Source: Campylobacteraceae bacterium
Lineage (GTDB): Bacteria; Campylobacterota; Campylobacteria; Campylobacterales; Sulfurospirillaceae
Assembly (NCBI GenBank): GCA_027050775.1
Contig: JALUBH010000017.1
Span: 1 to 32,637 of the forward strand
Direction of reading: 5' to 3'
Length of the DNA stretch: 32,637 bases
Shown: positions 921-5,745 of the stretch, piece by piece
How positions within the stretch are numbered: the first letter of the stretch is position 1
Layout of the letters: the number at the start of each line of letters is the position of its first letter
Program-made: the position numbers and the translations under genes
Notes under the pieces: generated by a model
Seen by the model: the letters and a program-made list of their open reading frames with translations, nothing else
The model's database searches: none
What the model was told of the DNA's origin: nothing

Positions 921-3567
<2,647 letters not shown>

Positions 3568-3614
3568 TTATTTACCTTATATAAGTATCTAACCAAGAGT
3601 AACACCAATTAATA

Positions 3615-3714
3615 GCAAAAAGATAACGGTGCGAGTGCAAGGCAGATTTGTGCAGGCTTAGCCGTAGCTAAGTCAAGCAAATCTAACGAAGTAATCGTGC
3701 CGTTATCTTTTTGC
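3615..3714. repeat. Arm 1: long imperfect hairpin inside the element
   Basis: GCAAAAAGATAACGG at 3615-3629 is exactly complementary to 3700-3714. Inside it GATTTG (3645-3650) pairs with CAAATC (3678-3683), and the tip is CTTAGC (3657-3662) with GCTAAG (3667-3672) around a four-base loop CGTA. The middle is imperfect. Read on the minus strand, a tauE-to-ligA transcript would carry this hairpin about 50 bases before the ligA start codon. Confidence 0.8.
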
Positions 3715-3802
3715 CCATAGGGAAATTAGGAAAGGTCACATCTATGTCGTTAAAAACTCTTGAGGTGCAATAAGTACATCTGCTAGTTTTTGCCTCATAC
3801 AT
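3683..3802 (-). CDS. Possible 39-residue CxxC peptide within the palindromic element
   Basis: An ATG at 3802-3800 has AGGAAAGG four bases upstream and opens 39 codons ending in TAG at 3685-3683. The peptide begins MYEAKTSRCTYCTSRVF and contains one CxxC pair (C9, C12), followed by FPNFPMGKKITARLLR. The spacing of CxxC, a P-x-x-P-x-G stretch and a basic end faintly recalls the zinc-binding N-terminus of ISL3-family transposases, but this is a weak resemblance over few residues. If so, the frame is a truncated transposase remnant. Its start region lies in hairpin arm 2. Chance is a serious alternative. Confidence 0.2.
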   Translation of the reverse strand: MYEAKTSRCTYCTSRVFNDIDVTFPNFPMGKKITARLLR

Positions 3803-3819
3803 GCAACCTTTCCTAGTTT
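3723..3819. repeat. Arm 2: imperfect hairpin inside the element
   Basis: AAATTAGGAAAGGT (3723-3736) pairs with ACCTTTCCTAGTTT (3806-3819) with one G-T pair. The match continues inward through CAT/ATG and AAAAACT/AGTTTTT with interruptions. On the minus strand the right half holds AGGAAAGG followed by ATG, that is, the ribosome-binding site and start codon of the 39-codon frame at 3683-3802. Confidence 0.7.
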
Positions 3820-3850
3820 CTATTAATTGGTGTTACTTTTGATTAGGTAC

Positions 3851-4603
3851 TTAAGTATCATATAGCAGTTTCAAAATTGTAACTCCAACTATAAAAAGAA
3901 AAAAACCTCTTATAAAAGAAACATCTCTTTTAACAACCATATTTGAGCCGACAAGTGCTCCCGTTATCTGTCCCAACCCCATCAAAACCCCTATAAAAAA
4001 CAGTACATTTCCGCTAAATAAAAATACTCCCAAAGAGACTATATTGCTTGTGAAATTCATCAATTTTGTTGTAGCGGTTGCTTTTTTCAAGTTTAATCCC
4101 AACAGCGTTACCAATGCTATCGTCCAGAATGTTCCCGTACCGGGGCCAAAAAATCCATCATAAAACCCCAATAAAAGACCAAATATAAGAAAAAAAACAG
4201 GTCTGGAAAACCTACTTCTTTTATCCATTCTTCCAAATTTAGGATTAAAAAGTGTATATAAAAATACAATAATGAGCATAAAAGGTATGACTTTATTTAA
4301 AATTCTCGCATCCAATAAAAGTATAAGTTTTGCACCGATCAATGCTCCGATAAAAGTAAAAATTATACCCATATAGACCTCTTTTACGCTGATAAGTCCT
4401 TTTTTGATAAAATTTATAGAAGCCGTGAAACTCCCAAAAGAGCTTTGCAGCTTATTTGTAGCAAGTGCGATATGAACAGGCATACCCGAAGCCATCAATA
4501 CGGGAACCGAAATAATACCTCCACCACCAGCTATGCTATCAACAAAACCAGCTAAAAAACCAGTTGCCAAAAATATAATGTAATAGTAAAATTCAAACTC
4601 CAT
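3851..4603 (-). CDS. TauE/SafE-family (sulfite exporter-like) membrane protein
   Basis: A 250-residue, strongly hydrophobic protein with about seven or eight membrane segments. It has the two family half-repeats: FVDSIAGGGGIISVPVLMASG with HIALATNKLQSSFGS in the first half, and FYDGFFGPGTGTFWTIALV with KATATTKLMNFTSN in the second. Members export sulfite, sulfoacetate or related organosulfur anions; the substrate here cannot be told. I use the ATG at 4603, which shares one base with the folP stop codon (TGATG); a TTG one codon earlier is also open. It is the last gene of the rppH-to-folP operon. Its stop codon lies inside the terminal repeat of the adjacent palindromic element. Confidence 0.88.
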   Translation of the reverse strand: MEFEFYYYIIFLATGFLAGFVDSIAGGGGIISVPVLMASGMPVHIALATNKLQSSFGSFTASINFIKKGLISVKEVYMGIIFTFIGALIGAKLILLLDARILNKVIPFMLIIVFLYTLFNPKFGRMDKRSRFSRPVFFLIFGLLLGFYDGFFGPGTGTFWTIALVTLLGLNLKKATATTKLMNFTSNIVSLGVFLFSGNVLFFIGVLMGLGQITGALVGSNMVVKRDVSFIRGFFLFIVGVTILKLLYDT

Positions 4604-5745
4604 CAATCCACTTCCAATATGGCTTTTTGAATACTCAAAGCCTGAACATGCTCTTTAACATCATGAACCCTCAAAATAGAAGCTCCTCTTCTGTGTGCTT
4701 CGAGATGTATCGCCAAAGTCCCGGGAAGTCTCTCCTGCGTTTCACTTTTATAAATCATGTCAATCATTGATTTTCTACTTGCGCCGACCAAAATAGGATA
4801 ACCGAAGTGTAAAAAATGCTCCAAATTCTTCAAAAGAGAAAGATTATGAGAGAGTCTCTTGCCAAATCCAATCCCTATATCCAAAACAATATCTTTTACA
4901 CCAAAATATTTTGCTTTTTCTATCCTTTGAGCAAAAAATGTATCAACATCCAATATCACATCATCATAGTGTGGATTCTTTTGCATATCTAAGGTATCGC
5001 CTAATTTGTGCATAAGCACAACTGTGGCTCCATAGCTTGAAGCTAACTTTGCAACCATATCATTTTGCAGAGCTGTTATGTCATTGACTATGCTAAATCC
5101 GCTATCTAGTGCATATCTTAGACTTAAAGGAGAATAACTATCTAGCGAGAACTTTACTCTCTCATACAATTTGTATCTTTTTACGACATCAATTATCTCT
5201 TTAAGTCTGCTAAACTCTTCTTCTTCGCTCACTCCCACACTGCCCGGACGACTCGATACCCCACCTATATCTATGATATCTGCACCCTCTTCTATCATAG
5301 CTTCTATTTTACTTTTGGCTTCACTCGTGCAAAATCTGCTTTGTGAGTAAAAGCTGTCGTCATTGGCATTTAAAACACCCATTATCTCTATTTTTTGTAT
5401 TTTTGGTTTGGCAAAAGTATTCAATATAGCAGCAATTTCTCTAAGTCCGAAGGGTTGAACTCTCTCTTTTATGCTCAACTCTTTGAGAGCAGCATCACTT
5501 GCTATCAAAACCGCATCTACGAACTCATCTCTACATGTAACACAATATTTCGGCACCGCCAAATCAGCACCAACAGAAAGAGCATCTTGTTTAAGTATAT
5601 TTGCCGCAGGCGATTTTATATCTTTGATGTATATAAGGTTTATATTTGCTTTCTTTTGGAGTATATTTGAGCCCTCTTTTGTAACACCCATTTTACCAAA
5701 CAGTTTATCCAAAGTGGTATCACTTGAAATTTTATATACTTTCAT
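4603..5745 (-). CDS. folP: Dihydropteroate synthase, long Campylobacterota form
   Basis: Joins p-aminobenzoate to hydroxymethyl-dihydropterin diphosphate in folate synthesis; target of sulfonamides. The catalytic TIM barrel starts near residue 115 with IMGVLNANDDSF, then DIIDIGGVSSRPGS, FSLDSYSPLSLRYAL, IVNDITAL, VVLMHKLG, DIVLDIGIGFGK, PILVGASRKSMI and a C-terminal RVHDVKEHVQAL. The first 110 residues are an extension absent from typical 280-residue enzymes; I recall it as usual in Helicobacter and Campylobacter, with no function known to me. LNANDDSF replaces the common LNVTPDSF, also as in these relatives. It lies one base downstream of holB and overlaps tauE by one base. Confidence 0.95.
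   Translation of the reverse strand: MKVYKISSDTTLDKLFGKMGVTKEGSNILQKKANINLIYIKDIKSPAANILKQDALSVGADLAVPKYCVTCRDEFVDAVLIASDAALKELSIKERVQPFGLREIAAILNTFAKPKIQKIEIMGVLNANDDSFYSQSRFCTSEAKSKIEAMIEEGADIIDIGGVSSRPGSVGVSEEEEFSRLKEIIDVVKRYKLYERVKFSLDSYSPLSLRYALDSGFSIVNDITALQNDMVAKLASSYGATVVLMHKLGDTLDMQKNPHYDDVILDVDTFFAQRIEKAKYFGVKDIVLDIGIGFGKRLSHNLSLLKNLEHFLHFGYPILVGASRKSMIDMIYKSETQERLPGTLAIHLEAHRRGASILRVHDVKEHVQALSIQKAILEVD

Follow-up and report, generated by a model that had tools for sequence, protein, structure and literature searches.

A mobile palindromic element beside ligA in a Campylobacteraceae genome, with MITE-type ends around an inverted hairpin pair that probably acts as RNA

Bacterial MITEs are usually viewed as shrunken insertion sequences with passive interiors, and many of them occur without a resident autonomous partner. 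Correia/NEMIS elements, the MITEs of Neisseria, have TA at their ends; the intervening sequences of rRNA genes, for their part, are removed by RNase III without religation. Transcripts of Correia elements are cleaved by RNase III (PMC10969869, PMC2229807, PMC2649163), and the 16S and 23S rRNA genes of Helicobacter and Campylobacter can contain intervening sequences closed by a terminal stem, the insert in the 16S rRNA gene of H. fennelliae being 355 bp long with a 24-bp stem (PMC3335488). The element described here lies between ligA and a TauE/SafE-family gene in a window of 32,637 nucleotides, the whole stretch of DNA that was analyzed, from a Campylobacteraceae bacterium (contig JALUBH010000017.1).

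The palindrome at this site (Table 1) is real and far beyond chance. Both strands were folded, as the preliminary description had suggested: the plus strand of the element came to -130.3 kcal/mol, its 200 shuffles averaging -58.2 and none of them folding as low (z = -14.7), and the minus strand reached -113.4 kcal/mol (z = -12.8; no shuffle as low). That description, made from the letters alone, had reported 34-base terminal repeats with an 18-base perfect core and only transitions between the arms, and we recovered all of this: the perfect stretch adjoins the hairpins, and the three differences are two G-T and one A-C on the plus strand. It had also placed two independent hairpins of about 100 bases inside the ends; both are there, but each is a copy of the same motif, the two having diverged and standing in inverted orientation with CCCnnnGGG between them. 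The element contains no ORF of 80 aa or more, with only the last tauE codon entering it, and a search of positions 3300 to 4200 against 4227 Rfam families gave no match at E values up to 1.

Table 1. Features of the tauE-ligA element and its two neighboring genes (window positions)
Feature	Position	Strand	Details
ligA (NAD-dependent DNA ligase)	1618-3567	-	Start 15 bp from element
Whole element	3582-3853	+	272 bp with flanking TA; other full-length copies share exact ends; empty site in relatives
Element without flanking TA dinucleotides	3584-3851		268 bp
Left terminal inverted repeat, class T1 (TA-AGTACC type)	3582-3615	+	Repeat search, folds, terminal consensus of 44 T1 copies
Hairpin 1	3615-3714	+	Arms 3615-3634/3695-3714; R1 match on + strand, 3623-3705, 93.6 bits
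AGGC side of hairpin 1 internal loop	3640-3643	+	Invariant, 23/23 aligned cores
AACG side of same hairpin 1 internal loop	3685-3688	+	Invariant, 23/23 aligned cores
Linker mini-stem CCC-ATA-GGG between hairpins	3714-3722	+	Read from sequence
Hairpin 2, same motif on opposite strand	3722-3820	-	R1 match on - strand, 3731-3812, 71.5 bits
Arms of hairpin 2	3722-3755/3787-3820		Repeat search
Right terminal inverted repeat	3820-3853	-	Repeat search, folds, terminal consensus of 44 T1 copies
TauE/SafE-family gene	3851-4606	-	Stop codon TAA (3853-3851) comes from element end

A second full-length copy, 90% identical, is present in the same genome (G000, at C8:3728-3999), which also holds single-hairpin or other-ended relatives at C18, C7, C3, and C20. 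When 60 relatives were searched with blastn, 15 gave matches, and eight genomes of three genera contained full-length copies at 70 to 94% identity whose ends coincide with those of the window element. In seven genomes of the same genus as the window genome (G001, G002, G003, G005, G006, G007, and G008), the element is missing and a few bases separate ligA from tauE; in these relatives the stop of tauE and the start of ligA overlap as ATGA, an overlap that the insertion has broken in the window. There, tauE ends a few codons early at the TAA on the element edge, and the ribosome-binding-like AAGG upstream of the ligA ATG, which lies outside the element (within 3568 to 3581), is retained. Because of the copy in its own genome, the copies in related genomes, and the seven empty sites, we conclude that the element is mobile and not a ligA leader; given those empty sites, there was no sign of conservation upstream of ligA or of a conserved role tied to it. 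Movement has been recent, since the window copy is 93 to 94% identical to copies in G003 and G004, with 94% for a copy in G003, whereas the ligA/tauE flanking DNA of G003 is only 77% identical to that of the window. Neighbors of the copies are many unrelated genes in all arrangements (37 codirectional, 22 divergent, and 9 convergent), and orientation among codirectional gene pairs is balanced (14 same, 19 opposite). A short, noncoding sequence of 272 bp with 34-bp terminal inverted repeats, dispersed in multiple copies with fixed ends and lacking at empty sites, shares these features with MITEs. Shortened versions retain one hairpin (163 to 164 bp) or the ends alone (56 to 66 bp), and at least one ends-only version is, to judge by the remnant of hairpin 2 that it keeps, a deletion product. 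In one T1 element of G003 (L052, C17, near 310-341), another long palindrome occupies the place of hairpin 1.

Very strong compensatory change was found in the interior when covariation was examined across copies: 28 of 30 pairs had changed on both sides in 23 cores, 95.0% of cells were paired, and 0 of 500 shuffles reached the observed values, with slid-alignment controls giving 31 to 44% of cells paired. AGGC and AACG face each other in the internal loop, which is invariant across the 23 aligned cores and is also present in GC-rich members; a similar C-rich/G-rich linker occurs in elements with other ends and in a 16S rRNA insert described below. An integron attC identity was rejected, as the loops, judged by eye, do not fit attC boxes.

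The two strands are not treated alike. Taken over the whole element, the strand test gave 122 G-T to 81 A-C, an average over two opposite hairpins that masks the signal. When 23 full-length copies were counted by region, at pairs that are most often Watson-Crick, using an ordinary sequence alignment on which the window copy's fold was imposed, the terminal stem gave 15 G-T to 16 A-C and hairpin 1 gave 18 to 5 on the plus strand, while hairpin 2 gave 7 to 27 read on the plus strand, which is 27 to 7 on its own sense strand. A larger set gave 144 to 6 in the cores of 115 distinct sequences, a count that depends on a structure-fitted alignment and from which the Watson-Crick rule excluded one conserved C-A mismatch column, and 25 to 19 in 42 terminal arms. 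All of these counts are inflated by related sequences, but relatedness would hardly give the two hairpins biases of opposite sign. The pattern indicates that each hairpin is constrained as a folded single strand, of RNA or of DNA and in opposite directions, because G-T is tolerated and A-C is rare on its own strand only, and that the ends are constrained as duplex DNA, because the terminal stem has no strand preference. That the inverted hairpins are under opposite constraint gives a testable indication that folding of the single strand is important.

A near-constant architecture of about 270 bp (mostly 260 to 290 bp) is common to several types of end. The T1 ends of the window element (TA-AGTACC) have TA on both sides, and T8 ends (TA-TTACCGCACC) have flanking TA only; in both classes the outermost base varies and the next is nearly fixed, and from this sequence pattern the flanking TA may be either a target duplication or part of the end. 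T4 ends read ATACCA, T2 ends (GGGCACC) are accompanied by a 4-bp duplication in 6 of 12 cases, and T3 ends (CTGACC or CTGATG) by a 7-bp duplication, TTNNNAA, in 19 of 30; end types beyond these five also occur with the same architecture. T3 ends, in addition, bound shorter elements that have no core. In a tree of interiors the grouping is mostly by end class, with T2 and T8 as separate clades and T3 split, and the idea that each end type captured the interior on its own was rejected on this account. The T3 copy at C3 in G000 carries a T1-like interior; since T3 is not one clade and this copy exists, end exchange must be at least occasional. Several variant arrangements were encountered: small T2-like palindromes (AGAGGTGCCC) nested inside T3 elements (L330, 102-290; L205, 4592-4767), longer T3-ended palindromes of 434 to 447 bp in a complete genome (L161 and L162, G188), and a core inside GAGACCACTGCACAG-type ends in G045 (L148 and L149), with the right end of L149 present twice in tandem.

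In the regions examined, paired T2 or T3 ends enclosed no recognizable autonomous transposon, as judged from ORF position and end pairing alone. DDE_3 (IS630 type) was absent from G000, G003, G004, and G008; most of the assemblies in the analysis are fragmented. A resident IS630 mobilizer was rejected because of its absence from copy-rich genomes, the three weak or partial matches having no visible bounding pair of ends. A transposase bounded by TAAGTACC ends in strains like G003 and G004 would be the candidate mobilizer.

The distribution of the element is essentially Campylobacterota. R1, a covariance model, detected the core in 19 genomes out of a sample of 150 from the phylum, in 13 genera and with up to 25 matches per genome, and it can be used to annotate an abundant repeat that has so far gone unannotated. 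Scanning 84,980 species genomes with a strict pattern gave 106 stretches, in which the second hairpin usually lies on the other strand, 24 to 26 bases beyond the first; among the 80 of these that were listed, nearly all were labeled Campylobacterota (Sulfurimonas, Sulfurovum, Nitratifractor, Sulfurospirillaceae, and others), the exceptions being one Gammaproteobacteria metagenome-assembled genome and one labeled "bacterium" only. The two elements on the Gammaproteobacteria contig (L280, 55-138 and 2408-2489) may reflect transfer or misbinning. No match to the element was obtained in the phages, plasmids, and viral contigs searched, and a literature search found no description of it.

One member lies within rRNA. 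Each of the three 16S rRNA genes of G103 (L145 to L147) has a 272-nt insert with the core in helix 10, the three inserts being identical and the gene spanning 1806 nt versus the usual 1530 nt or so; the stronger core match is on the strand opposite to the rRNA, which counts against the reading favored below. Among the SSU matches listed, all but those of G103 were of normal length. The window copy itself is intergenic, and it is this one relative that connects intergenic MITEs with the rRNA intervening sequences long known in Campylobacterota.

We suggest, with a probability of about 0.72, that the element belongs to a phylum-wide superfamily of MITE type in which transposase-dependent ends enclose a conserved structured module that probably acts as RNA. 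What carries this reading is the mobility with its empty site, an interior shared among different ends and duplications, the compensation, and a strand constraint that is opposite in the two hairpins and lacking at the ends. The preliminary description had offered a MITE, a REP-like element, or a structured RNA; MITE-type ends around a strand-specific structured module retain the first and third of these, and the REP-like option finds no support. In functional terms, the terminal inverted repeats would work as double-stranded DNA recognized in trans by transposases, and lineage-specific ends would suit different transposases. With the hairpins paired in inverted orientation, whichever strand is transcribed or single-stranded would show one of them in its functional sense. 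By analogy, that hairpin would work at the RNA level, most likely by offering a double-stranded substrate for processing of the RNase III type, and processing would remove or neutralize the insert in transcripts, as in rRNA intervening sequences and in NEMIS of Neisseria. Insertions could thereby be tolerated in operons and rRNA whatever their orientation, and the balance of 14 to 19 among codirectional genes is in line with orientation-independent processing. If this is true, the inverted pair gives each insertion one functional hairpin in either direction. We put forward only tentatively, and with the odds somewhat against it, the wider proposal that a previously undescribed strand-specific module with the AGGC/AACG loop serves throughout Campylobacterota as cargo of several end systems, and also as the source of rRNA intervening sequences and as a "safe landing" device recognized by a host factor.

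For the hairpins, the main rival is a role as single-stranded DNA, from which the strand bias would equally arise. A HUH/Y1 enzyme, following the logic of REP-RAYT or IS200/IS605, would recognize the folded hairpins, and the inverted pair would be the mobile unit, as in REPINs/BIMEs. Strand-specific hairpins in an inverted pair are what such an element would have, T1 and T8 ends are without proven duplication, and Y1_Tnp proteins of RAYT-like length (~260 aa) are common in the family, but G003 and G004, the two genomes richest in copies, gave no Y1_Tnp match, and neither did the core-bearing G042, G045, and G052. The 4-bp and 7-bp duplications left by T2 and T3 are unlike single-stranded DNA transposition, the terminal stem has no strand preference, and the long palindromes checked beside Y1 genes are not of this superfamily, so we regard this explanation as unlikely. 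Membership in the REP/RAYT group was rejected in particular because Y1_Tnp, although widespread, is uncorrelated with the element and not flanked by it; no Y1 linkage was seen, and the superfamily has duplications of 4 and 7 bp (T2 and T3) with TA only in the T1 class of the window. The family does have RAYT-like Y1 transposases with extended C termini, several per genome and near universal; those of G000 (L105, L106, and L109) are without flanking palindromes of the element superfamily, and a different long palindrome with 36-bp arms, TTAACTCGTTCCACC, lies on the same stretch as a Y1_Tnp match (L107, 1548-1700, G000:C43).

It is more doubtful still that the palindrome is passive, its pairing kept by DNA-level repair alone through template switching between arms and the folded strand having no function. 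Such repair accounts for near-perfect terminal stems without strand preference, but it leaves the invariant AGGC/AACG loop, the conserved mismatches, and the opposite G-T/A-C bias of the two hairpins unexplained. A structured RNA gene or cis-regulatory leader for ligA or tauE, which the strong RNA fold, the covariation, and the 15-bp distance from the ligA start might recommend, is scarcely credible given seven congeners with an empty site and copies beside many unrelated genes in all arrangements; conservation solely as a ligA leader is refuted, and a local effect on ligA expression is possible.

Among known systems, the superfamily with MITE-type ends proposed here resembles Correia/NEMIS elements in being short, nonautonomous, intergenic, and bounded by inverted repeats; it differs from them in that its interior is common to several end types and evolves by compensatory change, and to our knowledge no two-hairpin interior of this kind occurs in them. 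Against the common view of the MITE interior as passive, the interior here is the conserved part, and the ends vary by lineage, their flanks being of three kinds or more (TA, a 4-bp duplication, or a 7-bp duplication). ERIC, RUP, YAPL, and other bacterial MITEs are likewise nonautonomous and intergenic with foldback potential (PMC2229807), but they have been described as single-family repeats, whereas in the present case a single structured module is common to several end classes throughout a phylum. In REPINs/BIMEs, two inverted hairpin units also move as one (PMC3116915); these differ from the Campylobacterota element in sequence, size, and ends, and here two classes have 4-bp and 7-bp duplications and no RAYT dependence was seen. 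The rRNA intervening sequences of Helicobacter and Campylobacter are likewise palindromic inserts, comparable in size and built of a long terminal stem and inner stems (PMC3335488), and G103 carries the core of the element inside its 16S rRNA; those inserts are known from rRNA genes, whereas most members of the present superfamily are intergenic repeats.
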